Assembly (NCBI GenBank): GCA_026399075.1
Contig: JAPLRR010000078.1
Coordinates: 1 to 64,000 of the forward strand
Length of the DNA stretch: 64,000 nucleotides
Direction: 5' to 3'
Origin: Methylococcales bacterium
GTDB lineage: Bacteria; Pseudomonadota; Gammaproteobacteria; Methylococcales; Methylomonadaceae
Position numbers and translations under genes: made by a program. Each line of letters opens with the position of its first letter. Position 1 is the stretch's first letter. Below the pieces are notes generated by a model. It was not told where the DNA came from. It did not search any database and saw only the letters and a list, made by a program, of their open reading frames with translations. Below, piece by piece: positions 30,438 through 56,530 of this stretch.

Positions 30438-30442
30438 AAGGA

Positions 30443-31746: not shown

Positions 31747-31775
31747 GCGATGCTTCAAAAACCAGTGATAAAAGT

Positions 31776-31914: not shown

Positions 31915-32763
31915 TTATTTGGGCGTATTGACTTTGGTGATTTTGGCGTTGGCTTTTAAGACTTTGAGATACTCCTGAAATTTTTCTGTGCGCACATTGG
32001 CCAACACTTTGTCTTTGACCGCTTCAAACGCAGGCGCCTCTTGCACTTTAGTGTCTTCCAGAAAAATGATATGCCAGCCAAATTGGGTTTGTATGGCTAC
32101 ACTGGCAAACTCACCGTTTTTCATAGTGGCTAAGGCTTTTTCAAAAGCGGGGCCCATGGCGCGTGGGTCTACCCAGCCCAATTCACCGCCTTGGTTTTTG
32201 GTGTTGTCATCTTTTGAGACTTTTTTTGCCAGTTTGTCAAAATCTTCCCCTTTGGCAAGTTTGGCTATAGTTGCCTTGGCGGTGGCCTCATCTTCCAGCA
32301 AAATATGTTTAAGCTTGTATTGCTTGGACACTAAAGCCTGCTTTTTTTGTGCATAAATCTTGCGCAATTCATCATCACTAATCTGCAATGATTTCATGTA
32401 ATGTTCGGCGGCAATTTGGGAATAAGCAATCCGCAGCATATTGTGCACTTGCTCTTGGGTGGCCGGATCATTGCCCAAGTTTTTATTGGTGAAGTCTTGC
32501 CAAATCAATTCCCTGGCAATAACTTCATCCAGTGCTTGGTCTTGTGAGCCGGGTTTGCTTTTATCCGTGCGGGGTAGGGCAGATTGGCCTATCGGATGGC
32601 CGTTGACTTCGGCGATAACGTGCGCAGGTTTTACGTCAGGCAATGCGGATGCCGGATTGCTGGCCGCCGTTGGACTGGCAGTTCCACCATTGCTGGCGCA
32701 GCCGCCTAGTAACAGTGCCGCAATGAGGGTCAAAGGTGTCGCCAAGTTAGGTAGTGTTTTCAT
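31915..32763 (-). CDS. Parvulin-type peptidyl-prolyl isomerase lipoprotein
   Basis: A 282-residue lipoprotein (signal ending LIAALLLGGC) with a SurA/PrsA-like N-terminal helical chaperone part and a parvulin domain at about 145-245: KLKHILLEDEATAKATIAKL, FDKLAKKVSKDD, GGELGWVDPRAM, GPAFEKAL and a final TQFGWHIIFLED. These enzymes assist folding of secreted proteins. Its position at the end of the cytochrome cluster, on the same strand, suggests a role in folding the multiheme proteins or the barrel. Confidence 0.87.
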   Translation of the reverse strand: MKTLPNLATPLTLIAALLLGGCASNGGTASPTAASNPASALPDVKPAHVIAEVNGHPIGQSALPRTDKSKPGSQDQALDEVIARELIWQDFTNKNLGNDPATQEQVHNMLRIAYSQIAAEHYMKSLQISDDELRKIYAQKKQALVSKQYKLKHILLEDEATAKATIAKLAKGEDFDKLAKKVSKDDNTKNQGGELGWVDPRAMGPAFEKALATMKNGEFASVAIQTQFGWHIIFLEDTKVQEAPAFEAVKDKVLANVRTEKFQEYLKVLKANAKITKVNTPK

Positions 32764-32892
32764 TAAGTATTTGTCTTAAGTTGGAGGATTGGGGTTTGCT
32801 GGGTTTGGTTTATAAAACCCGTCGCAGGGTTTATTGTATACATAGTCGAGCTGTTTATAAGGTTTTTAATCGTCACCAAGGCGACGATAGTT

Positions 32893-33423
32893 TCATTGGG
32901 GCAGCTTGGTTTTCATTTCTTGCCAGATGGCAGGGTTTAGCGCACCAATATGCCTAGCGCGGATAACACCTTGGGCATCGACCAGATACGTTTGTGGCAG
33001 GCTGAAAATATCCAATGGCAAACCTGCCGCCGCCGCCCCGTCAAACATAACCCATACAAACGGGTTGCCATTTTGTTTAAGCCAAGTGCGGGCTATTTCC
33101 GCATCATCTTGATAGTCTATGGCATAGATGTTGATATTTTCCTCTGCCGCGATGCGCTTTAGTTCGGCGTGTTCTTCCCGGCAGGCCCCGCACCAAGATG
33201 CCCAGACATTAATCAAGGCCGGGCCTTTGATGCTGGTGCTGTCCAACAGCGTTTCAGTGTTAAACAAGGACGGGAGCTTAAGGACAGGCGTAGCTTTGCC
33301 GATTAGCCGCGACGCGTATTTATTGGGATCATACGTTAGCCCATAAAAATACAGCAGCCCTAAAATGGCAAACATCAGCAGCGGTAAAGCCAGCAATAAC
33401 TTAGGGGCAGGTTTTCCGGGCAT
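32893..33423 (-). CDS. TlpA/DsbE-family periplasmic thioredoxin, second CcmG-like paralogue
   Basis: About 176 residues from Met 33423, whose ATG shares a base with the stop of the upstream 970-residue cytochrome (TGATG), so they are translationally coupled; a longer frame to 33510 lies inside that gene. N-terminal anchor (LLLALPLLMFAILGLLYFYG), active site WASWCGACREEH and the cis-Pro loop FSLPQTYLVD match CcmG/DsbE. It probably reduces CXXCH cysteines of this cluster's apocytochromes, in addition to the ccm-operon CcmG. Confidence 0.87.
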   Translation of the reverse strand: MPGKPAPKLLLALPLLMFAILGLLYFYGLTYDPNKYASRLIGKATPVLKLPSLFNTETLLDSTSIKGPALINVWASWCGACREEHAELKRIAAEENINIYAIDYQDDAEIARTWLKQNGNPFVWVMFDGAAAAGLPLDIFSLPQTYLVDAQGVIRARHIGALNPAIWQEMKTKLPQ

Positions 33424-36335
33424 CACTTTAAGTAATCCACGCCAATGTTCCTCACCAATTTGGGGTCGTGGTAATACTTGTATTTGGTTTGTGCCTCCAA
33501 GGCATGGCAATCAACACAGAACGTGCCCTTAATACCTTTGGTGCGCAAAAAGCTAGTTAAGGGTGTGCCTTCCACATTGTCTTTATTACCGACTGCAACC
33601 ACGGATTTGGGTTGCTTTTTGGCTTGCTGGAGTTTATCGGCATTCCAAAAATGCGGGTCATGGCAAGTGATACAGGCGATTTCACCAAATTCGTTGGCTT
33701 TTTCTTTGTCATCCAGTAACGGCATCACGGTTTTGTCCGAACGTAGCACCACATTTTTATGTGGATGCGTAAAGGCTTTGACCACTTTCTTTTCGGCCAC
33801 ACCTTTTTTCTGATGGCAATTAATGCACAACTGGTCTTCTTTAAGCTTGCTGTGTTGCAGTTCTTTATCCACTACCGAGGTGTCTTCAGCGACGGCTATC
33901 GCGGAATACAAATGCGCGACTTTGTTTTCGCCCCTATGTAAAGTATGGCATGCGCTGCAAACGCCCGCTTTGGGTTTTTCCTTAAAGCGGCTTTCCTTAT
34001 CTTTGGCAGTGATGCGCAAATCATGGTCACTGCCTACTATCGCCTGTTTGCCCGCATGGCAATGGCTGCACAACTGGCCGTCCTGATGGTCTTCAACCAG
34101 GGCAGGGGTATTGGGTTTGCCAGTATGTACAGCATGGCAGGTCAAACATAATACTTTGCGGGTTTTCTTGCCGTCAATTTCCACTTCATCATCCATTTTC
34201 ATATTGACCGGATGTACGCCTTTTTTAAAGGCATCGTCTTTATCTTTGGCATCCTGACGGTCATGGCAAGTGTGGCATAAGGCTTCAGCATCCTTCATGC
34301 CTTTTTCCAATAAAGCCGTGTCGGGTTTGCCAGTGTGGACATTATGGCAGGTCGTGCAAGTGACAAATTTAACCTCATGACCATCTTTTTTCATCGGTTT
34401 GTCGGGTTTGACATTGACCGGATGCACCCCTTTACAGCGCGCGTCCTCTTTGTCTTTGGACGCTTGGCGTTCATGGCAGGCGATGCACAATTCGCTTTTG
34501 TCCGTTTTTAACACAGTAAGTTCAGAAATACCTTCACCACCATGCACTTCGTGGCATGAACGGCATAACAGGGTTTTGTCTTCACCTTGCACCGCCCCGG
34601 CATCCTGTAAGGTTTTCGGTAAGCCTTTATGCAAGTTTTCATCTTTGGCATAGCCTTTGGTATCTGGTGTCGGCGGTGGCAAAAATTTGACCATAATGGG
34701 ATGCACGCCTTTTTTATGCGCGTCTTCTTGGTCTTTGGATGCTTGGCGTTCGTGGCACGTCACACACAGCTCATCTTTGCCGCTAGGCAAAGCCGTCATG
34801 TCCCGATCCCCATGACCACCATGGACTTGATGGCAACTTTGGCAAATTATAGTGTCTTGATGGCCTAATACCCCACCCGCTTCAGCTAAGGCTTTGGGCA
34901 AACCTTCATGCAGATTTTTGTCCTTGGCATAACCCTTGGCTTCCGGTGTGGGTGGCGCGGTCAACTTAATGGCTAAAGGATGGGTATAGCCACGCTTTTT
35001 CACATCAGGTTCACGCGCTTGTTTAATTTTTGATTCATGGCAGCGTTCGCACAAGTCGCCGCCTTTATTGGTCACGCGCAACCACGCATTTTTATGGCCT
35101 TCGTAGAGGGTTTCATTGCCTACCCCTTTGGTGTGGGGTGTGTGGCAACTGGTGCAAGGCAAATCTTTGCTTTCGGTGCGCGGAAAAATGTCGGGCAATT
35201 TGTCTTTGCGTTTTTGTTCGTGGCGTTGCTTTTTAAGCTCGTCGGTATCGTAAACGCTAGCATGTTGGCCGTTTTTACCGATTTGGAACCTGGAATCCCA
35301 TATCGCGCCATTATGGCAGCTGTAACACATGATAAACGAGGCTTCGGGCAGCATGTTTTGTTTATCAGGTTCGTTGCCGACTTTCGCCCACGACAAATGG
35401 CACATTTGGCAATTCTTTTGCGAGGGGTCTGCGCTGCTTTCAGTCGCCAGTACCACCGGGATTTTGTCCAGGCCATCGATTTTTAAGGCGATGATTTCAC
35501 TGGACAGGGTATCGGCCACAAATAACACGCCATTATGCCAAGCAAGGCTAGTGGGGGATTTAAGTTTAACCGCAGTACCCTTGGCATCCGTCAATTCACC
35601 TAAGGCTTCGCCCGCCCTAAATAGCTTGATGGTGCCAAAATAACTGTCACTGACAAACAGCAGGTCATGTTGACTATCGATGGCAATGCCATTAGGCCGG
35701 AACAAATCCCCTTTTCCTGAGCCAAAATGGCCAATTTGGAGAACAAACCGCCCTTTTTTATCAAACACCTGGATGCGGGCGTTGGCTATATCGACGACGT
35801 TTAAATAGCCATCCCGGTCAAAAGCCATTTGATAAGGGTATTGGAATTCGCCATCGGTTTCGCCACGTTGCCCAAAGCAATCCAAGGCGGTTTGTTTAGG
35901 CAAATCATAGCGGCAGATCCGATGGTTGGCCCTATCCGCCCAGTAAATGACATCTTGGTATACACTGATGGCGACTGGTTCAGGCGGTTTTTTACTGTTT
36001 GCGGTGCCACGGACATCAATGGTTTGCACCAGCCCGCCAGTTTTGTTTAGGCGTAATAAATGCCCGCTTACCGGATCAGCAGCAAACCACTGGTCATGGT
36101 AAAAAAATACACTGAGTGCAGAAGCAGGGATGGCAGGGTTTGTTGACAGGACTTGCCCGGCATTAGTGACCAATGTCAGGCCGTTGCCGTCCAGTAGGGC
36201 CATAACTCCATCAGGGTTAACCGCAACACCAACCGCTTGTTGAAGGTTGGAAAGCACCGTTTTTTGCACGGCGACGTTGAGTGACCATGCCGCGCTAGAC
36301 CACAGCCAAAAAAATAGGATAAATAATCGTAACAT
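33423..36335 (-). CDS. 16-haem c-type cytochrome with N-terminal NHL beta-propeller
   Basis: A 970-residue exported protein. Signal peptide MLRLFILFFWLWSSAAWS; residues about 20-300 form NHL repeats (FQYPYQMAFDRDGYLNVVDI, LFRPNGIAIDSQHDLLFVSD); from about residue 308 to 945 there are 16 CXXCH motifs, from CQMCH and CYSCH to CITCH and CVDCH. The middle is tandem: di-haem modules of the form CxxCHxVHxG...CxxCHxRQ...KGVHPxxxK repeat about five times. No membrane anchor, so periplasmic or secreted. NHL domains often mediate protein contact. No characterised cytochrome with this exact layout is known to me. Co-directional with the cytochromes upstream and coupled to a thioredoxin downstream. Confidence 0.88.
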   Translation of the reverse strand: MLRLFILFFWLWSSAAWSLNVAVQKTVLSNLQQAVGVAVNPDGVMALLDGNGLTLVTNAGQVLSTNPAIPASALSVFFYHDQWFAADPVSGHLLRLNKTGGLVQTIDVRGTANSKKPPEPVAISVYQDVIYWADRANHRICRYDLPKQTALDCFGQRGETDGEFQYPYQMAFDRDGYLNVVDIANARIQVFDKKGRFVLQIGHFGSGKGDLFRPNGIAIDSQHDLLFVSDSYFGTIKLFRAGEALGELTDAKGTAVKLKSPTSLAWHNGVLFVADTLSSEIIALKIDGLDKIPVVLATESSADPSQKNCQMCHLSWAKVGNEPDKQNMLPEASFIMCYSCHNGAIWDSRFQIGKNGQHASVYDTDELKKQRHEQKRKDKLPDIFPRTESKDLPCTSCHTPHTKGVGNETLYEGHKNAWLRVTNKGGDLCERCHESKIKQAREPDVKKRGYTHPLAIKLTAPPTPEAKGYAKDKNLHEGLPKALAEAGGVLGHQDTIICQSCHQVHGGHGDRDMTALPSGKDELCVTCHERQASKDQEDAHKKGVHPIMVKFLPPPTPDTKGYAKDENLHKGLPKTLQDAGAVQGEDKTLLCRSCHEVHGGEGISELTVLKTDKSELCIACHERQASKDKEDARCKGVHPVNVKPDKPMKKDGHEVKFVTCTTCHNVHTGKPDTALLEKGMKDAEALCHTCHDRQDAKDKDDAFKKGVHPVNMKMDDEVEIDGKKTRKVLCLTCHAVHTGKPNTPALVEDHQDGQLCSHCHAGKQAIVGSDHDLRITAKDKESRFKEKPKAGVCSACHTLHRGENKVAHLYSAIAVAEDTSVVDKELQHSKLKEDQLCINCHQKKGVAEKKVVKAFTHPHKNVVLRSDKTVMPLLDDKEKANEFGEIACITCHDPHFWNADKLQQAKKQPKSVVAVGNKDNVEGTPLTSFLRTKGIKGTFCVDCHALEAQTKYKYYHDPKLVRNIGVDYLK

Positions 36336-36341
36336 AAGACG

Positions 36342-37151
36342 TTATTGTAACATCTCGCGTATGGTTATATGCTCATCATCCTTTTTATAGCGGCGGATAA
36401 ATTGCGGGATGATGTGCTTGGCCATCGCCAAACTTTGCTCTTTGGTGGCGCCTAATGCCGTTAGATTTAACAGACTTTTGTGTTCATCATGGCAGGTTTG
36501 GCAATCGGGGCCTTTTTTCTCTAAAGGCCAATGCACTTTGGCACGGATTAGGGTTTTCGCGTGCAAATCCGTCTTTTTCCATTCTTCGGCAACCGCATTG
36601 GAAAATGGCTGGTTTTTAAAGGCCAATGCTGGCCGCCCTTGGTAGTAAGGGACAATTTTCGGGTTGGCTGGCCGTTGTTTGGCATTGTCCAGTTCTTGCC
36701 CGATCCGGAACAAGCCTTTACCATCCACCGTCTGGTTCTTTTCAAAGTCATACCACTGGTAGTCCAAGGTTATATCCTTGGGTCTGAAGTGGCAGGTTTC
36801 ACAGGCAATAAAACGGACGTGCATATTATTGAACGTGCGGGTACGCAGCTGTTTGCTATGCGGCAAGGGGCTATGGCAATTGCGGCAAAAACTGTTGGGC
36901 GCGGTTTCGAGATCCCCGGACTGCTTATGGAAATTGGGTACGACAAATTTTTCCACTATTTTAGTATCCTGGTGTTCACGCACCTTTTTTTCTGAATGGC
37001 TTAAGGCTTCCTTGTCCGGGTTCGCCTGTTCCACCCTAGTTTGATAAAGCGATATTGCTTGGGCATTTGCAGCTATGGGCTGGGATTCTGCCCATGCGCT
37101 GCTACAAAATAACAGGCTAATGCCGGTGATGAACACTAGTTGCTTAGTCAT
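36342..37151 (-). CDS. Tri-haem periplasmic c-type cytochrome
   Basis: A 269-residue exported protein (signal LVFITGISLLFCSSAWA) with three CXXCH motifs: CRNCH and CETCH near residues 85-115 and CQTCH near 225. Long haem-free stretches, including YYQGRPALAFKNQPFSN, separate them. Its start overlaps the end of the octahaem gene by four bases and it stops six bases before the NHL cytochrome, so the three are one operon. Possibly a periplasmic shuttle or a subunit of its neighbours. Confidence 0.82.
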   Translation of the reverse strand: MTKQLVFITGISLLFCSSAWAESQPIAANAQAISLYQTRVEQANPDKEALSHSEKKVREHQDTKIVEKFVVPNFHKQSGDLETAPNSFCRNCHSPLPHSKQLRTRTFNNMHVRFIACETCHFRPKDITLDYQWYDFEKNQTVDGKGLFRIGQELDNAKQRPANPKIVPYYQGRPALAFKNQPFSNAVAEEWKKTDLHAKTLIRAKVHWPLEKKGPDCQTCHDEHKSLLNLTALGATKEQSLAMAKHIIPQFIRRYKKDDEHITIREMLQ

Positions 37152-38503
37152 GACTCATCCTTGGGGGTGTGGGCATCAGCCGTTTTTTCTGTGGGCGCTT
37201 GTTTATCTTCATTGGCTGCTGATGGTTTAGATTTGCGGCCAAACTGCGCCAACCAGCCGCTTACTTGGCGTTTTGTGACCTCCCAACGGCCTTCTTTGAC
37301 CCTGGCTTTGTTGGCTTTGGTGCCGATGATAATGCGTTGGAACTGGTCTGCCCCTAACAGGGAGTTATTGTTATTTTTGCTGAGTTTTTTACGGTCGCCG
37401 AACAGCCACCAGAAAACGCTGCCGCCAAAGAATATCACCGCTAAAATACCGAATACTATTGCGCCGTAATACCAGTTGGACTTGGTTTGCTGAAGCTCAT
37501 TCAACTTGGCTTCCAAGCCTAAGGCCACTGTCGCTGCCCCATGCATCGGCGTTTTCAAAAATCCCCGGTTGGCGGCATTTTTGGCATAACCTTGGTGGCA
37601 ATTGGATTGCCCGCAGGTGGTGGCCAACTGGTATTCATGGACAGACGCTTTAGGGTCGTCGTCGCGCCTAATATCGTGGTGCAAGCCCGTAGGCGCATGG
37701 CATTCAATGCAAGAGGCCCCCATCATATTACCATCGCTGATCAAACGGCCATGCAAAGTTTTGTCATAAGTTTCCGTGGAGTAAATGAATTCTGGCCCCA
37801 CTGTTTCTTTTTCCTTGGTGATGGGGTCTTCTTGTTCAACCTTGGCCATTCTTTCCGTATTGCCATGGCAATCAATGCAAAGGGCATTGGAAACCGGTTT
37901 GTTGAGACGGTTGCCGATATAGCGCCGCAATATATGGCCGCTGAATTGGTCACGCCAGACATCACCTGCATGGCAAGTGCCACATTCCGCATCATTATGT
38001 TCAAAGGCTTCTTTGAACGCGGCCATTTGGCTAGGGGCAATATAAGGGTCATTGGCATGGCAACGCCGACAGGAGGGCAGGGCGGAGTCCTTGTCTTCCT
38101 TAATGCGGTTGCCTGCGGCGAAGTCTTTAATCAAGCCCTTTCCGTGTGCGGATGCCTGGAATTCTTTGGCGATGTCCTTATGCGTGAACGCTTTGCCATT
38201 AGATGGCTCTTTTACATGGCAGGTTTCCGAGCAATCCACCAAGCCATCCTTTTCTTCATGGGGATAGTCGGTGATTTTACGGTGGCAGTCCTTGCAGGGA
38301 ACCGAGCCATGCAAGGAGCCATAATAATCTGCCTTAAGGATGGTGGCGGAACGCAACTGACCTTGTTTGTCCACATATTTCAAATCTGGCAAACCATGGC
38401 AAGAAAAGCAACCATCGGGGTCAGGGTGACGTTTTTCAGCATGGGCAGTGCTAAAAAACGCAGCCAACAGCATAAGCAGTAAAAGAGTAATCGACCGCAT
38501 CAA
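37148..38503 (-). CDS. Membrane-anchored octahaem-like cytochrome with expanded haem motifs
   Basis: A 451-residue protein: signal peptide (ITLLLLMLLAAFFSTAHA), six CXXCH motifs (CFSCH, CKDCH, CRRCH, CGTCH, CIDCH, CIECH), plus a CX3CH (CSETCH, 91-96) and a CX4CH (CGQSNCH, 297-303). A single C-terminal membrane helix follows (YYGAIVFGILAVIFFGGSVF, about 345-368) with a basic cytoplasmic tail of about 80 residues. Tethered to the inner membrane and lying directly downstream of a NapH-like protein, it could take electrons from it and pass them to the periplasm. Eight haems if the odd motifs are filled. Confidence 0.85.
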   Translation of the reverse strand: MMRSITLLLLMLLAAFFSTAHAEKRHPDPDGCFSCHGLPDLKYVDKQGQLRSATILKADYYGSLHGSVPCKDCHRKITDYPHEEKDGLVDCSETCHVKEPSNGKAFTHKDIAKEFQASAHGKGLIKDFAAGNRIKEDKDSALPSCRRCHANDPYIAPSQMAAFKEAFEHNDAECGTCHAGDVWRDQFSGHILRRYIGNRLNKPVSNALCIDCHGNTERMAKVEQEDPITKEKETVGPEFIYSTETYDKTLHGRLISDGNMMGASCIECHAPTGLHHDIRRDDDPKASVHEYQLATTCGQSNCHQGYAKNAANRGFLKTPMHGAATVALGLEAKLNELQQTKSNWYYGAIVFGILAVIFFGGSVFWWLFGDRKKLSKNNNNSLLGADQFQRIIIGTKANKARVKEGRWEVTKRQVSGWLAQFGRKSKPSAANEDKQAPTEKTADAHTPKDES

Positions 38504-38552
38504 AACAAGTATTCCTTGGTCATAGTTTTGGTTAATGGTGGCATGGTTGGGT

Positions 38553-39599
38553 TTAGCGAATGATCAGGGTAGCGGCAACTGCCACGGTAAAGCCTAACAA
38601 AAGTGTCGCATTGACTACCCGTCCCCAGCGGATAGCGCGGGCTTGGATAGTGGGCTCTAGCCTAGGGGTGAAGGTCATCACCTGCCAATCGGGTTCGGGG
38701 AAAATGTCCACGCCTTTTTTGATGCGCTTAGGGGTTTTATTGCGGGAAGCCGTTGTCCATTCAATGGCATTCCAGTCACATACGTCAACGCATTCGTGAC
38801 AATCCATACAAGAAGATTGCTGCACAGTGGCAATTTTATCGACCATTTTAATTGCCCCGCACATACAGTTACGCGCACAAATATTGCAACCTGTGCAACG
38901 CTCTTTGGCCACGCGGATGCGGTGGGTGTTGCGGAAGCGTGAACCTAAGCTGTTGACAATCCCGTCTATCGCGCCGATTGGGCACATAAATTGGCAATAA
39001 GCCCGGCCTTTGCTGGCAAAAAAACCCAACAACAACAGTAAGGAAAGGTTCACCAAGCCCACCGCCGAAAAAATAAAGGCCAAGCCACCCGCGCCGCCGG
39101 ACATGGACTCAACCAAGCGCGGCACGGTGATAAAATTGCACAAGGTGCAAGCGCTTACCCCGATGGCTGGCAGCACGATCATATAAGTGGCCAAATAGCC
39201 GTAGCGGATTTGGAATTGCGGCAGCCAGCGGTACTCAATTTTCCAGCGGTCATTGAGCAAACGGCTGACCAACTCACTAAAGCCACCCACTGGGCACAGG
39301 TAGCCACACCAAATTCGGCCAAAAAACAAAGTGGTCAACAAGATTAAGCCAAAGGCAATCACACCTATCATCGCGGCAGAGGCATGGGTCACAAAATCTT
39401 CCACGGTCATGCCGGGGAAGTATAAGTAAAACCGACGCATACACAGCCGACCACATAAATCACTGTTACCGGCCAGTTTGGGTAAAATCGTCAATGGCCC
39501 CAAAAACAAAACACAGGAGGCAAAAATCGTCATATACCGAAAGCGTTGCACTTTTGGTTGCGCTAGCCATTCTTGATACCAACCTTTGATTATTTTCAT
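38553..39599 (-). CDS. NapH/NosR/CcoG-like membrane polyferredoxin
   Basis: About 348 residues from Met 39599 (MKIIKGWYQEWL). Around five membrane helices, two CX3CP motifs (CGYLCPVG, CQFMCPIG) and two [4Fe-4S] ferredoxin clusters (CTGCNICARNC, CMDCHECVDVC) match the NapH/NosR C-terminal group, which moves electrons from quinol or other donors to periplasmic carriers. CMDCH here is an iron-sulfur ligand set, not a haem site. It is the only likely electron entry point in the cluster. Confidence 0.85.
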   Translation of the reverse strand: MKIIKGWYQEWLAQPKVQRFRYMTIFASCVLFLGPLTILPKLAGNSDLCGRLCMRRFYLYFPGMTVEDFVTHASAAMIGVIAFGLILLTTLFFGRIWCGYLCPVGGFSELVSRLLNDRWKIEYRWLPQFQIRYGYLATYMIVLPAIGVSACTLCNFITVPRLVESMSGGAGGLAFIFSAVGLVNLSLLLLLGFFASKGRAYCQFMCPIGAIDGIVNSLGSRFRNTHRIRVAKERCTGCNICARNCMCGAIKMVDKIATVQQSSCMDCHECVDVCDWNAIEWTTASRNKTPKRIKKGVDIFPEPDWQVMTFTPRLEPTIQARAIRWGRVVNATLLLGFTVAVAATLIIR

Positions 39600-39650
39600 T
39601 ACATTACCCTCATGGTTACCCAAATTTCATTCATAACTAACGCCTGCCCT

Positions 39651-41620: not shown

Positions 41621-42251
41621 GGCAATCACTACAATAAATTTCATTATGGCAACGGCCACAACGGGATGGATCCATACGGGACTCTAAGCCGTGCAGGGTT
41701 CTATAACCTAAAGGATGATAACCTTGGCCTGAAGTGTCCCTACGCATGTGGCAATCGGTACAAAAATTCATATCCAAATGGCAGGTTTCACAGTATTTTT
41801 CATTTTGCCTGGCTATTTCGCCATGATGGTTTTTATAATCCAGCCGATGGTCAGGTGGCCATATTTTTTCTTTATTGTCGTGGCAAAGGTCACAACGCCA
41901 AGGCGCGCGCTTTTCTTCCACATGACAGCTATGGCAAATCGGCTTTAAGGCCTCATTGGCGATGACGGTCATTTGGGTCAGTTTTTTGGGGTCGGTGATG
42001 TCGGTTTTTGTGTAGCTATGGCAAAGCATACAGCTGTCGCCTTCTTGTTCCATGACATCCAAATGGGCATTGTGCGGATAAAAAATGTCCGAACGCTTAT
42101 CCCGCAGTTTCCACCATTTCTTATCATCTTCTGGAATTGCTTGGGCTGCTTTTTGTTGTGCGGAGGCCTGCGGCGCAGCCACAAGTGCTGTCCCAGCAAA
42201 GCTGGGCACAAACAGTGCCCAGAGCAAAATAAAAATAACGGTCCGTATCAT
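41607..42251 (-). CDS. Heptahaem c-type cytochrome
   Basis: A 214-residue exported protein (MIRTVIFILLWALFVPSFAG) with seven CXXCH motifs packed into 150 residues: CMLCH, CHSCH, CDLCH, CETCH, CTDCH, CGRCH, CSDCH. The spacing is short enough for a stacked haem wire. It directly follows the beta-barrel gene with a four-base overlap, the arrangement of porin-cytochrome conduits in which a periplasmic cytochrome plugs the barrel. Confidence 0.86.
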   Translation of the reverse strand: MIRTVIFILLWALFVPSFAGTALVAAPQASAQQKAAQAIPEDDKKWWKLRDKRSDIFYPHNAHLDVMEQEGDSCMLCHSYTKTDITDPKKLTQMTVIANEALKPICHSCHVEEKRAPWRCDLCHDNKEKIWPPDHRLDYKNHHGEIARQNEKYCETCHLDMNFCTDCHMRRDTSGQGYHPLGYRTLHGLESRMDPSRCGRCHNEIYCSDCHATQ

Positions 42252-43654: not shown

Positions 43655-43664
43655 ACGGCAGTGC

Positions 43665-43949
43665 TTAGTGCTTAAAATTGGCCGTTCGGGTTTCAAATGG
43701 CTCTAGCCCTTGTTCCCGCTGTGTTTTACGGGCTTTTTGGTTGCCCAGCGCCCAGCCAGTTAAGGTGACTACCGCAACGATACAGCTACCGCAGCCGACA
43801 CATTTGCCAATTTTTGGCACAGAACACCCTGTCGCCAAAAACGCTTGGCCTGATGCGATGCCGGAACCCGTCAACCAAGGCCCTGCTTTTTCAATAAGCT
43901 GGGCTTTCAGTGATTTGCCGTTGGGCTTGTCAATATCAAAAAATGCCAT
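43665..43949 (-). CDS. Small Cys-rich protein of unknown family
   Basis: A 94-residue protein lodged between the barrel and the first cytochrome. It has a four-Cys cluster (ATGCSVPKIGKCVGCGSC) followed by a short hydrophobic stretch (IVAVVTLTGWALG) and a basic tail. No signal peptide. Start ATG 43949 with GGAG upstream. The Cys spacing could hold an iron-sulfur or zinc site; no family recognised. Confidence 0.6.
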   Translation of the reverse strand: MAFFDIDKPNGKSLKAQLIEKAGPWLTGSGIASGQAFLATGCSVPKIGKCVGCGSCIVAVVTLTGWALGNQKARKTQREQGLEPFETRTANFKH

Positions 43950-43969
43950 GATCCGTATTCTCCGTTGTA

Positions 43970-46615
43970 CTATTTCTTTTTGGCGACTTTAAGGTCAGCC
44001 ACAAGCAGGCGCTCAGGCAAGCTGTCAATGATTGCAATCACGTAGCCCGGGTTTATGTTGGTGCCGGGTTTTACGGCGATAAATTCCGCTTTCACTAACG
44101 TTGGCGAGGCTAGTTGGATGCCTTTTAGCAAACGGGTTTGGAAAATATCGACTTTTCTGGTACTGGTTGCACGGCCTGAATAGGGCAGCTTGATCAAAAA
44201 CTTGCTGGCCCCTAAGGTAGTAACCGCTTGCTGTTGCTGGTTTTTTAATGAAAAGGCAAATACTTGGCTAGTGACTGAGCCTTTTGCAATGGCATAGGTT
44301 TTCTTTTTGGGCGGCGTAGTTGGCGACGTTAAGGAGTAACTGCTCCAATCACTTAACGCCACTTCCAGACGGTAGTTGGGCACGATGGTTCTGCTGGCAG
44401 CGGTGGCATCTAGCATGATTGCCACTTTGTTGACCTTATCGCCAGAAATGATGTTATTGAACAAAAACACTTTAGCCGCCAGTTTTTCGCTAGTGGTACT
44501 AAACGCCGGGGTGTCAACCAGCCCTGCGGCTTTTAAGGCATCACCTTTTACAACTTCCCTAAATTCACCCGCAGTCACTTGTCGGTCATTAAGCATTAAG
44601 GCCGATGTGAACGGATTCATTTTGGTCTCGTAAAGAATATTGTCTACGTTTTCAACAATTGCACCGTCTGTGGAAATTTCAAAATATGGTATTTCCAGTT
44701 TAAGCACGCCTTCTTTAAGCAAACGTGCGTAAGCCGTGGCATCGGCAATTTTAGAGACCACGCGGCTATTTTTCTTGCCTAAGATACGGTCTGGCTCTAC
44801 TAATGAGCTGACTGAGCCGTTGGCCTTGCGGGCATGGCATTCGTCACAGATCATGGCCTTAGTTGCTACGCGGCTGTTATGGCTAATCAAATACTCATTC
44901 GATTCTGTCCAGATCAGTTGCACGTCTGCTGTTGCATAGCCTTTACTGCGCAGCAAGGCATCAAGGGCATTCTTTTGGGCAATAATATCCGAATAAGTTT
45001 GGGGCACTTCATCAGAACCTTTGCTGGCTGCTAAGTGTTCTTGGCGGCTAACAACGCGTTTGCTGGCCTTATCCATCCAGTAGTAACGGCTAGATGGTTT
45101 ATAAGGCATCATTTTCAGCTTGCCGTCTTCAGCCTTGCGGTAGCGGTAGCGGACTACCAGATCCTTGTCAGCATATTTTAGCCTGACAATATGGCAGGTT
45201 TGACAAGCAACCACATCCAAGTGCACTTGGGTGGTTTTATCCAATGAGCTGGCCACATATCCCACCATATCCCCACGGGCTTTCCACAACTCACGGTGCG
45301 CGTCCAGGATATTGGTATGACCTGAAGGTAGGGCAGGGTCTTTGGCGCCGCCAAACTTGACACCGTTATGGCAGTATTCACAAGACAAAGCGCCGGGTTG
45401 GAAATTCAGGTCTTTGCGCACGTCTTCATCAGAGTTGCCTACCAAAAAATTATGGTCGGCATCCAAGTCCACATTGCGGAAAGTGTCCTTGTAATATTGT
45501 TTGCTATGGCAAGAATTGCAATTTTCAATATAGCGTGATGCGCCTTTGGTGGGCCATGATTTACCTTTGTGGACATCATCGGAATAATCTTCCATTAAGA
45601 GGCCATCTTGGTCGTATTCCGGTTTGGAGACATCGCCAAAACCATAAAAGCCACGGCGCTCATGGCTGGTTTTATGGCATTGCATACAATTGGTGTCGCC
45701 AGGGAAGCGCAACATCGGCATTTGTACTTTACCATTGCTGTCAAATGCGTCAGCGTTCCAGTGTAATAAGGGTTGGCCGTCGCTGCCATTACCACCGGGC
45801 ACGGTCAATAGGGTTTTGCCTGTGTCTGAATCCGGTGCTACATTCAAAAATGCAAAAATAGCGGAATTGGCATAGCGGAAAAATCCGTTGCCGATAAATT
45901 GTTGGCTACGCAAGGCAGTCCATTCGCTAGCCGGTTTAGTGAATTTGGAAAAATCGGTGTGGCAGATCATGCAGTCAGGCTCAATCACGCCGCTTTTTTT
46001 CCAGCTCCATTTGCTTAACTGGTTGCCGCTGGTGTTGCTGCCATCCCCTTTAAGCCATTCAAAGTAATCACCGTCCAAGGGCTTAATGTCAGCATCAGCC
46101 ACTTGGTCATAGCGTAAACCAGTGCGGTCTTTTTCGGCAAAGCCACCGCCATTGTGGCATTCGGCGCAGTTCTTAACCAGGCCAGCAGCACCATAATCCA
46201 AAAAGGCTGATTCGCTGGCATTAAACTTTTTGGATAGCCATTGTGGGTTATTAAGTTGTCCTGGGTTATAGCCACAGTTAAAGCCGCCAAAATAGCCAGG
46301 TGAAACTAAAGCAGGCTGCCCCCGTTGTTGTCCATAAGTATCGCTGGTTTCTTCCCGCCCCATTTCAAAATGGTAAGCCTTGCTGATTTTATCAATGTCA
46401 TGGCAGCCACCACCTTCGCCGTTGCCGCAGCTCATGCGCGAACTATAGGGTTTGTTGCTGTTCAACACGTGCTGGCCTTCTTCATCCAGCAAGGGGATGG
46501 CTGGATGCAAGACGGGCAAATCAAACACATTTTCTCCGGCGACCGCCTTATTGGCGGTAAAGAGCAAAAACGCTCCCATCATCAAAAGATAATTAATAGT
46601 TGATTTTTTCATCAC
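43970..46615 (-). CDS. Large multihaem c-type cytochrome, first gene of the minus-strand cluster
   Basis: An 881-residue exported protein (signal ...LLFTANKAVA). Seven canonical CXXCH motifs (CAECH, CMICH, CMQCH, CNSCH, CEYCH, CQTCH, CDECH) lie between about residues 150 and 600, preceded by an expanded CX7CH (C63...C71-H72, CGNGEGGGCH). The last 250 residues are haem-free and beta-rich (VAIMLDATAASRTIVPNYRL). A sigma-54-type element ends 47 bases upstream of the start. Size and the adhesive-like C-terminus suggest an outer-surface or periplasmic terminal cytochrome; no named family recognised. Confidence 0.84.
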   Translation of the reverse strand: MMKKSTINYLLMMGAFLLFTANKAVAGENVFDLPVLHPAIPLLDEEGQHVLNSNKPYSSRMSCGNGEGGGCHDIDKISKAYHFEMGREETSDTYGQQRGQPALVSPGYFGGFNCGYNPGQLNNPQWLSKKFNASESAFLDYGAAGLVKNCAECHNGGGFAEKDRTGLRYDQVADADIKPLDGDYFEWLKGDGSNTSGNQLSKWSWKKSGVIEPDCMICHTDFSKFTKPASEWTALRSQQFIGNGFFRYANSAIFAFLNVAPDSDTGKTLLTVPGGNGSDGQPLLHWNADAFDSNGKVQMPMLRFPGDTNCMQCHKTSHERRGFYGFGDVSKPEYDQDGLLMEDYSDDVHKGKSWPTKGASRYIENCNSCHSKQYYKDTFRNVDLDADHNFLVGNSDEDVRKDLNFQPGALSCEYCHNGVKFGGAKDPALPSGHTNILDAHRELWKARGDMVGYVASSLDKTTQVHLDVVACQTCHIVRLKYADKDLVVRYRYRKAEDGKLKMMPYKPSSRYYWMDKASKRVVSRQEHLAASKGSDEVPQTYSDIIAQKNALDALLRSKGYATADVQLIWTESNEYLISHNSRVATKAMICDECHARKANGSVSSLVEPDRILGKKNSRVVSKIADATAYARLLKEGVLKLEIPYFEISTDGAIVENVDNILYETKMNPFTSALMLNDRQVTAGEFREVVKGDALKAAGLVDTPAFSTTSEKLAAKVFLFNNIISGDKVNKVAIMLDATAASRTIVPNYRLEVALSDWSSYSLTSPTTPPKKKTYAIAKGSVTSQVFAFSLKNQQQQAVTTLGASKFLIKLPYSGRATSTRKVDIFQTRLLKGIQLASPTLVKAEFIAVKPGTNINPGYVIAIIDSLPERLLVADLKVAKKK

Positions 46616-46661
46616 TGAGTCTTTGTGTTAGTGTCAACGGGAAAAAGATGTAAAAGAAATA

Positions 46662-46678
46662 AGCAAGAATAGAGCCAA
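46662..46678 (-). promoter_or_regulatory. Sigma-54-type promoter for the minus-strand cytochrome cluster
   Basis: On the minus strand TTGGC (46674-46678), seven bases, then TTGCT (46662-46666): the -24/-12 geometry of the RpoN consensus TTGGCACGN4TTGCW, matching all ten fixed positions except the variable ACG. A start near 46650 would leave a leader of about 35 bases before ATG 46615. Confidence 0.65.
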
Positions 46679-46986
46679 GTTGAGTTGGCCTAACTCCGTA
46701 AGTGCTTAATTCCTTAGTAAAACAATTGGGTATTGTGTTTAATGAATTTAAATCAGCTAGTAACTGCGCGCCTGCGGTGGCAAGTTGCCATAAATTAGGG
46801 GATATGCCTTAGTTTTAAGCAAAAAATAAGGCATATCACACACTGTGGTTATTCTTTTAAGGTAAAACATGGGTTTATGTTGCTTTTGTCAAAAGTAAAA
46901 TTTTTTGTGCGCTCTGGTGTTTACATAAACTTGAAATAAAACCACTGACGGTTTATCGGTAAAAAAGCTGCTTAAAGCGCCTAAAA

Positions 46987-47014
46987 TTGCAGTCTGCGCA
47001 AAAATTGACTGCAA
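46987..47014. promoter_or_regulatory. Perfect inverted repeat between the two sigma-54 promoters
   Basis: TTGCAGTC (46987-46994) and GACTGCAA (47007-47014) are exact inverted copies with a 12-base spacer, centres 20 bases apart (two helical turns). Lying about 310 and 570 bases from the two promoters, it is placed like an enhancer-binding-protein site. The rest of 46616-47665 shows no gene. Confidence 0.4.
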
Positions 47015-47583
47015 ATAAGGTATGAACAGCCGATTTGCCCAACGATTAAAAGTTGCTATAACGTAGGCCGCTTTTAACCTTTTATCGAGGTGCTGCCATT
47101 TAGATTTTGGATATACAGCAAGTCCTATGCCTATTTTGAGCTGTAGGGCACTTTTGGTGATTGCGGGTAAATCCCTTCGGAGGAACTGTTTTTGAGTTTC
47201 GGCAAGGATGCTGTTTGGTCGACTGATGGTTGGTGTCGGTGTTAAGCGTAGGTGTTTTTGGCGGGGTAGTAAGTTTGCTCTTATTGTCTTGCGGCAAATG
47301 ACCTGATTTTTAATAAAACTGGGGCAAATCCCCTAGCATCAAACAATAGGTGCAAATTAGCTTACAAAAAACAATTGATTATAAGCTGCCAGTGGAGGAG
47401 GGGGCTTTCTAATTTTTCAATAAATTAACCACTCATTCGGTTAAATAGCCTCTTTTTTATTGGGCAATTTATCTTTAGCCGTTAAATTACACCCCCCACC
47501 TAATTCTTCGTATTTTTAATAAATATCATTAAATCAATCAGCTATGTATCTATCTTTCCGTCATTTGGGGAGGATTTATTAGC

Positions 47584-47600
47584 TTGGCGCTAATTTTGCT
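47584..47600 (+). promoter_or_regulatory. Sigma-54-type promoter for the 1233-residue cytochrome
   Basis: TTGGC (47584-47588), seven bases, TTGCT (47596-47600): the same -24/-12 words and spacing as the element facing the other way at 46662-46678. It lies about 70-85 bases upstream of the start codon. Confidence 0.65.
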
Positions 47601-47671
47601 TTAGGTTGCCATAAGCCCGAAATGTCCGGGTTAATTAGCCAGAATCTTATAATAAACAGAGAGATATGATC

Positions 47672-50600
47672 ATGAAAGACAATCCCACAAGTAAGCCGGG
47701 TAAGCAGGGGAGCGGTTTTTTGCTCTCTGCGGCGGTTGCAATGCTGCTTGTTATGCCCTTACAGGGAGTCACAGCTGCAACGCTAGTTCCCAGCATAAAA
47801 GCAACGGCAGGTATCGATAAAAAACTAAATAGATTAGTGGTATCTGGTAAAACCGTTGGTATGGCGGTAGGTTCAGCGGTGTCAATTTATGATGCCGCTG
47901 ACCACCGCTTGTTGTTCGCCGGACAAACCGATGCCAAATCGGCTTTTAAGTTTATTGTCCAGCAAGATGCCGTGCCTTGTATTGTCCAGCTTGAAACCAC
48001 AAGTGCCGAATTGGCAGTGGCTGTAGCGGGTACACCAAAAACCTGTAAAGTCAAACCAGCCTGTAGCATTAAAGGTGGTAACCGCTTTATTAGCGAAGCC
48101 ACGCCGCAGACCTTTGATATGGTCACCAAAAATAAAGGGTTGATGTTTGATTGGGATATGGGCGATGGCACTAAAGAAACCAATAAACTGAGTGTGCCCC
48201 ATACTTATAAATTTGCTGGGCTTTATCAGGTTAATGCGGCGGGCAAGGATGCCAGCGGCAACCAGTGTTCAGATTCTGTGACTGTGTCGGTTGCACCGCC
48301 CGCCAATACCAATTCCAATGGGCCAGTGGCGGAGTCCGGTTCGCGGCCTAAAACCGCAGCGGGTATGCCGGGTGCAAATGGTGCCAATGATGTCGATGCC
48401 TTGGTGGTGTTCCCGTTTGAAGATATGGGTATGGAAGGCGGTAGCCAAATCAACATTCCCTACAATGCGCTATTTCCATATAACGCTTTGAATGCACAAG
48501 TTATCCGCAAAGTGGCTAAGAAGCCGATCATTGTTGATTCTAACACGGCTAGTGTTTACTATTCTGCCGCTGCCAATCCGGTAGACCCAATGGGTGCAGG
48601 TTCCATCAACTCAACTAGCCAAAATTATTTTTCTGATGGTGCAAAAGGGGCAAACTTTGACCCGGATGCAACCAAGGCAAAAGCGACCACTACTGGTGAA
48701 ACGGTTTATAAAGATGACCATACGTTTAATATAGCCAACATAGCCAAAACAGAGTTTTGGGATAAGGCACACCAACCGAATGCGTCTAAGTTGACAACAC
48801 CAGTGCCAGAAAAAGGCCTGTCCCAAGCAGATACCCAAAACACTTTCGTGCCAGCCAAACCATTGGCTTTGCCCGATCAAGGTTTGCGTGGCAATGTTGA
48901 TAAGGGCGTGGCTGTGAGGGCGATGCCGGGTATTTCTGACCCTTATAAAGCCAACGTGCCGCAAAAATTTGATTATAGTGCTGCCCAGCAATCGTTTGTG
49001 GCACAAAACATACCTGCCACTTCTATTGACGACCAAGGCCGAACTAACCCATATCCTTTGATGCGGGTTGAAGCCAAAGACAGTTCTGGTGCCGTAAAAT
49101 CAGCCATTGATGCGGTGTACACCACGGCATCAGAAACAGGTTGTGTACAGTGTCATTATAAAGGCGAAAAGGGGGCGGATGATAAAGTCTGGCGTACGCC
49201 CGTCACTATTAAAGAATTGCTTAATCCCGACGGCACACCCGGACCGGCAACAGGCAAAGGCGAATTCCCGCCCCTTAACCCACCGACACCCGTGCTGACA
49301 GGTGATGCCATTGCCGATTTTAAAAAATACGGTTATGGCCCTGCAACCCGCAACTTGTTTGACGGCAAGTTTGCGTTGAATCCAGCGCAAGCGATTATTG
49401 CCCCAGGCATTACTTTGGAATATGACGCCAATGGTATACGTACAGACCGTGTTGCTGAATCCCGCTGGTTGAAACCCGACGGTACCACTAGCTCCACTAA
49501 TCCTACGAAAGATGCGACTTGGAAATTGCAAATCCGCCTGAAATTTAAAGATGCCAGTGCGTATGGGGATGATAATTGGCAAAACCGAGAAAAAGCAGCG
49601 CGTTGGAACAATATGCTGCTGCATGATTACATGACCCCGATTAACTACAATAACGCGCGTGATGACGTTTTTGCGGAAATTGTCGATGACAAATACTTAA
49701 CCCGCAACTCTGTCACTATGTGTGCATCGCATCATACCAGTACGCTTAAGTTTGATACCGGTGCAGGGGCTTACAGCCAAGTCAAGACGCTTTCTGACTA
49801 CACCCGAACTGAACATGCGTTTCATGGCAAGATGCAAGTGTATAAGCGTGATGTAACAGCCGCTGAATCTGCCGATAAGATGGCGCATACCAAAGGCGAG
49901 TTGATCCGTAATGAGCGCGGACATCCAATTATGTGGGGTGGCCGTGGTTGGGATACTATCGATAACGATGCCAACCGTTTGCCGATGACACTGGATGCCA
50001 GTGGTAAATACACCGTGCTTGCAACCGTGTTTCCTACCGCAGACCGTAATAACTGGAAACCTGACTTGTTCCCGCAGCATCCTTTAGGCGAAGAAATGTT
50101 GCCTGTGGGCGAAAACATCCCAATGGAAAAAAACTGTTTAACCTGCCATACCGGTAAAACCGAGAAAAGCTACCGCGACATCCACCATGCAGCGGGCATG
50201 AAGTGTGACAGTTGCCACGGAGGTATGTTGGCGGTGGGCTTGACTTATCCGCATGAAATGTATGACGGCAACTTAACAGCCGCAGGTGCATTAGGTGTTG
50301 ATAAAGCAGACACTTTAACTGCGCCAGACTTCCGTCGGGCTTGGTTGGATGAACCGAACTGCGGTTCTTGCCATGTCGGCGATGCCAATTTGGCGAAAGA
50401 AGGTGATGCGGGGCTGAAGCATTATTTCAGTGCGGGTGCCACCAAACAAGGTTGGATGGATGGCGACAAGGCTAATGCTACGATACATCCGGTCAATGCA
50501 CGTTTTGCTGTTATGCCTAGCAAACAATATTTGCCAGAAAAATTGACGGCAACAGCAGCAGATGTCACCGCAGGAAAAGCGGCTAAAGTCGGTGACACCT

Positions 50601-51367
50601 ATTACTCAAACCGTGAGGTATCGCAAGCCTTATACCGCAAGAGTGGTGATGTGCATGGCAGTGGCGCTAACGGCGTACTCAATTGCTCCACTTGCCATGG
50701 TGGTTCACACGGCATTTGGCCCAATAAAGACCCCAATGCCAATGACAACGTGACTTCCAAGCAATTGCAAGGTTATGACGGCAATATCGCTGAATGTTCT
50801 ACCTGCCATATTAAAGAAGACTTTAAGACGGGCTTGGTGGCAACAGATGGCGGTAGCGTCAACTTGGGTGTAGGCCAAGGTGTCAGGGCGGGTACGGTGG
50901 TATCCCCTACCAGTGCTAAAGCCTATTTGGCTGGCCCCCATGGTATGCATCCAGTCGGTGACGTTTATTGGTATAAACATGCCGATGGTGCCGCATCCAG
51001 TGCTAAACCTGTCAAAGTCAAAGGCCAAGAAATGAATGGCGGTTGGCATAATGATATGGCCAGCAAACCAGGGCCAGACGGGGAAGACCAATGTGCTGCC
51101 TGCCATGGCGCTGACCACAAAGGTACGCGTTTATCTCGGACTTTGGCTGACCGCACTTTAGTCAACAGCAAAGGCGTTGCGATCAAGGTTGCCAAAGATA
51201 AAATCATCGGCTGCGATTTGTGCCATGCCTTGAAGAAGAGCTTTGCAACAGCACCTGACCCTAAATCACCCACAGGCGGCTGGCCTAAAGCCAAGCTGCA
51301 TATGCCACCGATGCCAGAACCGGTGGCTATACCCGGATCAACGGGTGGAGGTGGCGGGCACGGCTAG
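47672..51367 (+). CDS. Large PKD-domain multihaem c-type cytochrome
   Basis: About 1231 residues. Met 47672 has AGAGAG at good spacing; ATG 47666 is possible but too close. Signal peptide (FLLSAAVAMLLVMPLQGVTA), a beta region, a PKD-like domain at about 135-210 (LMFDWDMGDGTKETNKL...VPHTYKFAGLYQV), a haem-free middle, then eight CXXCH motifs between about 490 and 1205: CVQCH, CLTCH, CDSCH, CGSCH, CSTCH twice, CAACH, CDLCH. A CXXHH (CASHH, about 686-690) looks like a ninth, altered site. PKD modules are typical of surface proteins, so an extracellular location is inferred. Ends Gly-rich (GSTGGGGGHG). Followed by two terminators. Confidence 0.86.
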   Translation: MKDNPTSKPGKQGSGFLLSAAVAMLLVMPLQGVTAATLVPSIKATAGIDKKLNRLVVSGKTVGMAVGSAVSIYDAADHRLLFAGQTDAKSAFKFIVQQDAVPCIVQLETTSAELAVAVAGTPKTCKVKPACSIKGGNRFISEATPQTFDMVTKNKGLMFDWDMGDGTKETNKLSVPHTYKFAGLYQVNAAGKDASGNQCSDSVTVSVAPPANTNSNGPVAESGSRPKTAAGMPGANGANDVDALVVFPFEDMGMEGGSQINIPYNALFPYNALNAQVIRKVAKKPIIVDSNTASVYYSAAANPVDPMGAGSINSTSQNYFSDGAKGANFDPDATKAKATTTGETVYKDDHTFNIANIAKTEFWDKAHQPNASKLTTPVPEKGLSQADTQNTFVPAKPLALPDQGLRGNVDKGVAVRAMPGISDPYKANVPQKFDYSAAQQSFVAQNIPATSIDDQGRTNPYPLMRVEAKDSSGAVKSAIDAVYTTASETGCVQCHYKGEKGADDKVWRTPVTIKELLNPDGTPGPATGKGEFPPLNPPTPVLTGDAIADFKKYGYGPATRNLFDGKFALNPAQAIIAPGITLEYDANGIRTDRVAESRWLKPDGTTSSTNPTKDATWKLQIRLKFKDASAYGDDNWQNREKAARWNNMLLHDYMTPINYNNARDDVFAEIVDDKYLTRNSVTMCASHHTSTLKFDTGAGAYSQVKTLSDYTRTEHAFHGKMQVYKRDVTAAESADKMAHTKGELIRNERGHPIMWGGRGWDTIDNDANRLPMTLDASGKYTVLATVFPTADRNNWKPDLFPQHPLGEEMLPVGENIPMEKNCLTCHTGKTEKSYRDIHHAAGMKCDSCHGGMLAVGLTYPHEMYDGNLTAAGALGVDKADTLTAPDFRRAWLDEPNCGSCHVGDANLAKEGDAGLKHYFSAGATKQGWMDGDKANATIHPVNARFAVMPSKQYLPEKLTATAADVTAGKAAKVGDTYYSNREVSQALYRKSGDVHGSGANGVLNCSTCHGGSHGIWPNKDPNANDNVTSKQLQGYDGNIAECSTCHIKEDFKTGLVATDGGSVNLGVGQGVRAGTVVSPTSAKAYLAGPHGMHPVGDVYWYKHADGAASSAKPVKVKGQEMNGGWHNDMASKPGPDGEDQCAACHGADHKGTRLSRTLADRTLVNSKGVAIKVAKDKIIGCDLCHALKKSFATAPDPKSPTGGWPKAKLHMPPMPEPVAIPGSTGGGGGHG

Positions 51368-56496: not shown

Positions 56497-56530
56497 GCCG
56501 TTGCAATTATATTGATAAGTCAGGCCAACG

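Follow-up and report, generated by a model that had tools for sequence, protein, structure and literature searches.

The electron conduits MtrCAB, PioAB and MtoAB share a plan in which a beta-barrel stands beside periplasmic and surface multihaem cytochromes. Geobacter OmbB-OmaB-OmcB, compared here by its description, is alike in combining a barrel, a small octahaem periplasmic protein and a large outer-membrane cytochrome (PMC6344600). Within the order Methylococcales, a four-gene cluster from a Methylobacter methane bioanode has also been proposed as a conduit (PMC13322032), and an operon of Methylococcus capsulatus with eleven genes, eight cytochromes, 58 CXXCH motifs, copper repression and two surface cytochromes has been proposed to export electrons (PMC4831470). 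Here we analyze a relative of the latter operon in a 64,000-nucleotide stretch of DNA, hereafter the window, from a methanotrophic Methylococcales bacterium (GCA_026399075.1, contig JAPLRR010000078.1, positions 1 to 64,000, forward strand).

We think it likely that the window's operon encodes a trans-envelope conduit and that this conduit carries electrons outward. The anatomy fits a conduit: an inner-membrane redox module, exported multihaem proteins, a barrel and large cytochromes whose M. capsulatus counterparts were found in the surface fraction. It would be a real, conserved and probably functional member of a family that has already been described. The preliminary description of this DNA had suggested an uncharacterized trans-envelope conduit, perhaps of a new type. 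Anatomy and a barrel model favor the conduit; the novelty falls away, because the gene set is orthologous to MCA0424-MCA0433 of M. capsulatus, for which PMC4831470 advanced the same hypothesis in describing the operon without biochemical characterization. To what is in print we add the joint inheritance of the core genes, the finding that no subunit is above the curated MtrB/PioB, DmsE/MtrA or OmcA/MtrC cut-offs, a probable octahaem protein and fusions involving NapH-like and CysJ-type proteins.

The operon runs on the minus strand from 46615 down to 33423 and is followed by genes for a DsbE-type thioredoxin and a parvulin-type protein. Its ten genes have same-order counterparts in MCA0424-MCA0433, with MCA numbers assigned to single genes by order only. 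The features, with their CXXCH counts, are as follows.

43970..46615, minus strand: large exported heptahaem cytochrome (Surf7) that opens the operon, 7 CXXCH plus CX7CH; counterpart of MCA0424/MCA0426
43665..43949, minus strand: small four-Cys protein, CxxPxxGxCxxCGxC beside one hydrophobic segment; no Pfam family, barrel genomes only
42248..43696, minus strand: predicted outer-membrane beta-barrel, 22 predicted strands; counterpart of MCA0427
41607..42251, minus strand: heptahaem cytochrome, 7 CXXCH, candidate barrel plug; counterpart of MCA0428
40562..41659, minus strand: octahaem cytochrome, 8 CXXCH; counterpart of MCA0428b
39651..40610, minus strand: hexahaem cytochrome, 6 CXXCH; counterpart of MCA0429
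38553..39623, minus strand: NapH-like membrane polyferredoxin, five hydrophobic segments and a 4Fe-4S dicluster domain (Pfam/NCBIfam, hydropathy)
37148..38503, minus strand: anchored cytochrome, 6 CXXCH plus CX3CH and CX4CH, C-terminal membrane segment; counterpart of MCA0431
36342..37151, minus strand: trihaem cytochrome, 3 CXXCH; counterpart of MCA0432
33423..36335, minus strand: NHL-propeller and 16-haem cytochrome, 16 CXXCH; counterpart of MCA0433
32893..33510, minus strand: DsbE/CcmG-type thioredoxin (TIGR00385, 132.4 bits, cut-off 123.15)
31915..32763, minus strand: parvulin-type peptidyl-prolyl isomerase (Pfam), lipoprotein-like N-terminus by inspection
47666..51367, plus strand: divergent large octahaem cytochrome with a PKD domain, 8 CXXCH; relative of the cytochrome upstream of the M. 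capsulatus operon (c553o group, by position)
46616..47665, no strand: upstream region shared by the two divergent genes; sigma54-like boxes lie 62 bases ahead of 43970-46615 and 81 ahead of 47666-51367 (starts of the longest open reading frames [ORFs])

The M. capsulatus Texas locus (L050) encodes, in order, a large heptahaem, the four-Cys protein, a second large heptahaem, the barrel, the heptahaem, octahaem and hexahaem proteins, NapH, the anchored cytochrome, the trihaem protein and the NHL cytochrome. These eleven genes, each with a counterpart in the window, include eight cytochromes with 7+7+7+8+6+6+3+14 = 58 CXXCH, the figures published for the strain Bath operon (PMC4831470). M. capsulatus differs in having two large heptahaem copies and in extending the anchored octahaem into a CysJ-type reductase, whereas the window has one copy and no fusion; its NHL cytochrome has 14 CXXCH against 16 in the window.

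Haem motifs and family relationships of the cytochromes

The eight exported c-type cytochromes together carry 61 CXXCH motifs, reproducing protein by protein the counts of the preliminary description, as well as its three expanded motifs (CX3CH and CX4CH in 37148-38503, CX7CH in 43970-46615). In 1,000 residue shuffles of the eight proteins, CXXCH averaged 0.23 with a maximum of 3. A scan of named genomes yielded 79 candidate stretches, 51 of them confirmed as loci and including M. capsulatus Texas, Methyloprofundus, Methylothermaceae and Bathymodiolus symbionts. Among complete ORFs within these loci, the motif number was nearly constant: seven in all 51 heptahaem proteins, six in 42 of 43 hexahaem proteins, three in all 27 trihaem proteins, six in all 29 anchored cytochromes, seven in 35 of 38 Surf7-type proteins and eight in 45 of 48 octahaem proteins, with 16 in two of the remainder and 24 in one. 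The enlarged octahaems (24 CXXCH in L061 4582-7530; 16 in both L051 1993-3789 and L067 4759-6753) probably arose by tandem repetition, since their counts are multiples of eight. The NHL cytochrome carried 12, 14 or 16 motifs in 24 of 25 cases, the 25th (L045) being split over three frames; a cut copy in L067 has 17. The largest found, L103 1483-4767, has 20 CXXCH in 1,095 residues.

The expanded motifs are likewise retained. Every one of the 34 relatives of 37148-38503 that are complete, 29 of them stand-alone ORFs and five fused to NapH, has both CX3CH and CX4CH, so this apparent hexahaem, judged by its motifs, probably binds eight haems; we refer to it as the anchored octahaem. In Surf7-type ORFs a CX3-12CH motif lies within the first 220 residues in 37 of 38, counted as presence per ORF and not as aligned sites. 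This count replaced one based on CX5-9CH (12 of 37), a pattern that proved too narrow.

The preliminary description had also held that no subunit is an obvious MtrA, MtrB or MtrC, and family hidden Markov model searches bear this out: none reaches the curated MtrB/PioB, DmsE/MtrA or OmcA/MtrC cut-off. PF11854 (MtrB_PioB) matched neither 42248-43696 nor anything else in the window's genome. Against TIGR03508 (DmsE/MtrA, cut-off 192.2), 33423-36335, 40562-41659 and 39651-40610 scored 76.5, 44.6 and 29 bits; against TIGR03507 (OmcA/MtrC, cut-off 209.3), 43970-46615 and 33423-36335 scored 16.4 and 32.1. Several subunits fall slightly above the cut-off of 30 for the Pfam MtrC/MtrF domain PF22113, at 32 to 38 bits. 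The locus differs from MtrCAB, PioAB and MtoAB in having a heptahaem and not a decahaem protein beside the barrel, 22 predicted strands and no PF11854 match. The Methylobacter cluster differs in encoding an MtrA/DmsE-family decahaem protein, an MtrB/PioB barrel and two monohaem proteins (PMC13322032), and this MtrA/PioB-type composition rules it out as a description of the present locus. Sequence searches of the Protein Data Bank (PDB) returned nothing at an E value of 0.1 for 43970-46615 or 37148-38503, one match (E 0.087) for 40562-41659, only collagenase PKD-type domains for 47666-51367, and chiefly NHL propellers plus two weak multihaem chains for 33423-36335.

The barrel and the proteins inherited with it

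The product of 42248-43696 has no Pfam or NCBIfam match at an E value of 0.01. By inspection it carries a signal peptide, with the mature protein beginning near residue 46. Its AlphaFold model, built from a 43-row alignment, is a beta-barrel (pLDDT 84.4, pTM 0.73) with 22 strands of at least five residues, counted on the DSSP line. The barrel claimed in the preliminary description, which a barrel-less predicted fold would have contradicted, is therefore well supported by modeling. In structural alignment with VIA-align, TonB-type receptor barrels came out on top (best Z 19.8 over 374 aligned residues, rmsd 6.6), and other barrels scored nearly as high (MOMP, for instance, at Z 18.6); TonB-type receptor barrels have 22 strands. 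Kinship with MtrB is not supported: MtrB (6r2q_B) ranked 24th in Foldseek with a TM score of 0.40, no closer than many unrelated barrels. The barrel profile gave four matches among PDB sequences, all at E 0.29 or worse and none meaningful.

Gene order ties the barrel to the heptahaem protein. The two lie within 600 bases of each other in 48 of 50 loci, while other neighbor pairs do so less often (heptahaem and octahaem in 34 of 51, large heptahaem and barrel in 29 of 39); these lower shares reflect in part the earliest-start rule used for ORFs and the truncation of contigs, and in part variable order. In L101 (687-3395) and L077 (from 2229), the large surface heptahaem is inverted and kilobases from the barrel; operon order is therefore not absolute. 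The heptahaem profile returned 13 matches to PDB sequences up to E 1, no conduit chain among them, the best cytochrome being a c7 at E 0.07.

The small Cys-rich protein of the preliminary description was recovered as the four-Cys ORF. It spans 73 to 121 residues over 48 loci, and P24, W25, G28, the four Cys, G48, G54 and A67 are invariant over 26 rows. Hydropathy indicated one hydrophobic segment in 47 of 48 relatives and two in one, and we dropped a two-helix membrane hairpin on this ground. The protein has no Pfam family, and its only NCBIfam match is QrcC at E 0.08. An Fe-S cluster or another metal center in it is conjecture.

Profile searches of 311 Methylococcales genomes matched the barrel in 54, the four-Cys protein in 53 and the heptahaem protein in 49. 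Every genome with the four-Cys protein also has the barrel, and G294 alone has a barrel without the four-Cys protein; in the five barrel genomes without a heptahaem match (G062, G094, G134, G282 and G307) the barrel match itself is incomplete, as would be the case where a contig breaks off. The three genes thus travel together, and roughly one Methylococcales genome in six has them. Distribution is patchy, although the set is passed on as a unit: by genus, the heptahaem occurs in 15 of 50, and in the window's own genus only G000 and G001 have a match, at least 20 other genomes having none. In a class-wide sample, 9 of 369 genomes matched the heptahaem profile, namely, two Methylococcales, five others strongly and two weakly. 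One of the two weakly matching genomes outside the order encodes a 13-CXXCH protein (L107 5634-6722) that is possibly distant kin of the heptahaem. A contig filed as Desulfuromonas (L056, VEPG01000103.1) is mis-binned or transferred; it bears the operon's first part together with a PKD cytochrome that shares 45% identity with that of the window.

The inner-membrane module and its fusions

The NapH-like polyferredoxin named in the preliminary description is recognizable in 38553-39623, which scores 76.4 bits against TIGR02163 (cut-off 213.05) and 71.1 against NF007013 (cut-off 234), reaching neither cut-off of the family of the NapGH quinol dehydrogenase. In the anchored octahaem, a signal-like segment lies at the N-terminus and a single hydrophobic segment at the C-terminal end. 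In seven gammaproteobacterial loci (L065, L074, L082, L084, L086, L104 and L108, the last cut by a contig end), the two proteins form one polypeptide.

A second fusion joins the anchored octahaem to a CysJ-type diflavin reductase, which follows the octahaem's membrane segment. We verified it in nine genomes. Five belong to the M. capsulatus genus (G063, G075, G078, G093 and G099, four of them single-contig); the others are G110 (L071) and the Methylothermaceae-type G065, G071 (L054) and G079. G088, with a CysJ match in a 1,083-residue frame, was left out. The M. capsulatus Texas copy (L050 13643-16585) exceeds the TIGR01931 cut-off of 668.15 at 690.7 bits, and the copies in G065, G110 and G071 fall just under it (659.2, 653 and 650.1). 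In a 46-row tree of the anchored octahaem, the nine CysJ-fused rows lie in a clade of ten (support 99/89), and six NapH-fused rows lie in a separate clade of eleven together with five unfused rows. The fused copy is the sole strong CysJ match in the five Methylococcus genomes; G071, G076 and G088 have a separate additional match, and G000 and several others have none.

The fused relatives share flavodoxin, FAD and NAD(P)H domains with CysJ, the flavoprotein of NADPH sulfite reductase, but differ from it in that the reductase follows a membrane anchor belonging to a multihaem protein. The fused reductase is unlikely to serve sulfite reduction, because CysI (TIGR02041) is over its cut-off in none of 17 genomes; a weaker relative (best 75.1 bits) occurs in all 17, CysJ-less ones included. 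Judged from domain order, the fusions would unite NADPH oxidation and the haems in a single polypeptide, and the position of the reductase part behind the membrane segment points to its lying on the cytoplasmic side. This arrangement suggests that cytoplasmic NADPH can feed the conduit in Methylococcus and Methylothermaceae. Quinol, the electron source in the preliminary description, was an assumption, and the fusions in nine genomes point to NADPH in those lineages. The octahaem-CysJ fusion was not described in the titles or abstract openings of the literature searched (full texts being covered in part), and the main text of PMC4831470 contains no word beginning with "flavo" or "NADPH".

Proposed electron path, rival explanations and genomic setting

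In the conduit that we propose, electrons would enter at the inner-membrane module formed by the NapH-like polyferredoxin and the anchored octahaem. The route in CysJ-fused lineages would run from cytoplasmic NADPH through FAD and FMN to the octahaem; in unfused lineages, quinol, ferredoxin or a separate reductase may supply the electrons. The hexa-, octa- and trihaem proteins would carry them through the periplasm to the heptahaem, lodged inside the barrel or beneath it. From there the large cytochromes would deliver them to an extracellular acceptor, for example Fe(III), Cu(II), humics or an electrode. A strict companion of the set is the four-Cys protein. For the fused lineages at least, we tentatively put forward an NADPH-fed trans-envelope reductase for extracellular metals in copper-starved methanotrophs, in which a cytoplasmic diflavin reductase, a NapH-like Fe-S protein and a one-anchor octahaem would span the inner membrane, a heptahaem would sit in a 22-stranded barrel and the four-Cys protein would be a required part, as a bacterial counterpart of the yeast NADPH-driven surface metal reductases.

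Published work on M. capsulatus is consistent with outward transfer. All eight operon cytochromes rise 2.3- to 8.6-fold without added copper, and MCA0424 and MCA0426 were detected in the surface fraction, in that species (PMC4831470). M. capsulatus reduces ferrihydrite and produces a formate-dependent current, more strongly when copper starved, and deletion of MCA0421 lowered the current (PMC6281684). The step from these data to a working MCA0424-type conduit, like the direction and role of the conduit, is inferred.

Several observations weigh against the conduit or its NADPH supply. The top Foldseek matches of the barrel model are pilus ushers and MOMP, at TM scores of about 0.4 to 0.5, so the fold match says nothing on the barrel's function. 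The heptahaem model (41-row alignment; pLDDT 48.5, pTM 0.26) is unusable and gives no barrel-plug contact. An unfused row, L063, sits within the CysJ-fused clade of ten, and a long CysJ match elsewhere in the genome accompanies an unfused octahaem in G204, G042, G139, G231 and G225. The window's own genome, 93% complete, has no full-length CysJ, only a partial match of 30.5 bits. Finally, the gene deleted in the work described, MCA0421, lies outside the eleven-gene operon, and the mutant kept part of its current (PMC6281684).

The same conduit could serve metal acquisition, with copper shortage leading to extracellular reduction of Cu(II) or Fe(III) for uptake and not for respiration. We regard this as a possible but doubtful alternative. 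In M. capsulatus, copper shortage induces the operon, which belongs to copper-responding cluster 1 together with TonB-family genes, and a Fur box was proposed upstream (PMC4831470). A CysJ fusion would supply an NADPH-fed reductase; yeast Fre reductases use NADPH to reduce metals for uptake. The formate-dependent current and ferrihydrite reduction, however, fit respiration or electron overflow equally well. A Pfam scan of 29 window ORFs, a part of the total, revealed no TonB receptor, and 61 to 64 haems would be a heavy iron cost for scavenging. The published Fur string was absent from the L050 locus as an exact match, and in a scan for 19-base Fur-type sites the window reached 13 of 19, compared with 15 for L050 and 10 to 13 for other loci; we therefore set the Fur box aside. 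Two of the three published promoter strings lie near the start of the first L050 gene. In the window, sigma54-like boxes precede both divergent genes with 10 of 12 consensus positions, a score reached in 8 of 500 shuffles on the 43970-46615 side and in none of 500 on the 47666-51367 side; scores of at least 9 occur upstream of 17 of 34 Surf7-type ORFs, against 1.8 expected from shuffles. These boxes are promoter candidates, a consensus match being no proof of use. Control by sigma54 would be shared with the soluble methane monooxygenase (MMO).

It is unlikely that the locus encodes no barrel conduit at all, the barrel being an ordinary porin and the cytochromes a periplasmic or surface electron store or an enzyme resembling octahaem tetrathionate reductase. 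That the barrel model is no closer to MtrB than to many other barrels would suit such a view, as would the weak similarity of 43970-46615 to TIGR04315, the octahaem tetrathionate reductase model (36.5 bits, cut-off 375). Some enzymes of the latter type have the active-site motif CXXCK, but none of the eight cytochromes contains it; the presence of the four-Cys protein in 53 of 54 barrel genomes and the neighboring position of barrel and heptahaem genes in 48 of 50 loci also speak against this view. Still less probable is an inward conduit drawing electrons from Fe(II), minerals or another cell. PioAB and MtoAB have been suggested to act in Fe(II) oxidation (PMC6344600), but the fusion that links the inner-membrane haem protein to an NADPH reductase of CysJ type points outward, as does the anodic, donor-dependent current of M. 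capsulatus (PMC6281684).

The outward conduit that we favor lies in a tightly packed stretch. The preliminary description gave gene overlaps of 1 to 14 bases; the packing is evident, but because start codons are not settled by sequence the exact lengths are not either, and the longest ORFs from 32893 to 46615 range from a 49-base gap to an 88-base overlap. Divergent from 43970-46615, across 1,050 bases, the PKD octahaem is 52% identical to the L050 gene upstream of the operon and falls, by position, into the c553o group. In M. capsulatus, MCA0421, beside the operon, is counted with MCA0423 in that group; a published c553o count includes MCA0424, and a later paper's table does not place it there.

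Both accessory proteins of the preliminary description are present: the thioredoxin scores over the DsbE cut-off and probably serves haem attachment, and the parvulin-type protein has its lipoprotein-like start. A thioredoxin gene lies downstream of the operon in several relatives too, and the parvulin gene adjoins it in one (L038; L110 is the same contig), many loci ending earlier. Cytochrome c maturation genes directly follow the cluster at 24822-31788. Cut-offs are exceeded for CcmA, B, C, E, CcmF/NrfE, DsbE and CcmI, and a CcmH/NrfF-type protein falls short of that of the one NrfF model listed; maturation genes are likewise found close to the operon in L071, L076, L085 and L102. Elsewhere in the window are a ribonucleotide reductase large subunit with an intein containing a LAGLIDADG domain (1594-4923) and, a few genes past the cluster, a response regulator and sensor kinase pair (55819-57877). 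The operon's nearest named relatives are Methylococcaceae metagenome-assembled genomes, the anchored octahaem being 81% identical to that of L038. The host genome has one strong match to PF02461 (ammonia monooxygenase/particulate MMO subunit A family, 432.3 bits) and two neighboring PF02332 matches, which may represent soluble MMO or a related diiron enzyme.

Aerobic methanotrophs often live in oxygen-poor water and sediment, where the fate of their electrons is debated (PMC11218250, PMC13322032). A conduit found in about one-sixth of Methylococcales genomes, including cultured Methylococcus and mussel symbionts, attaches named genes to that question, and the fusions turn a vague scheme of quinol to the outside into a testable one with NADPH as donor. 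If true, NADPH entry would tie the methanotroph copper switch to reduction at the cell surface.

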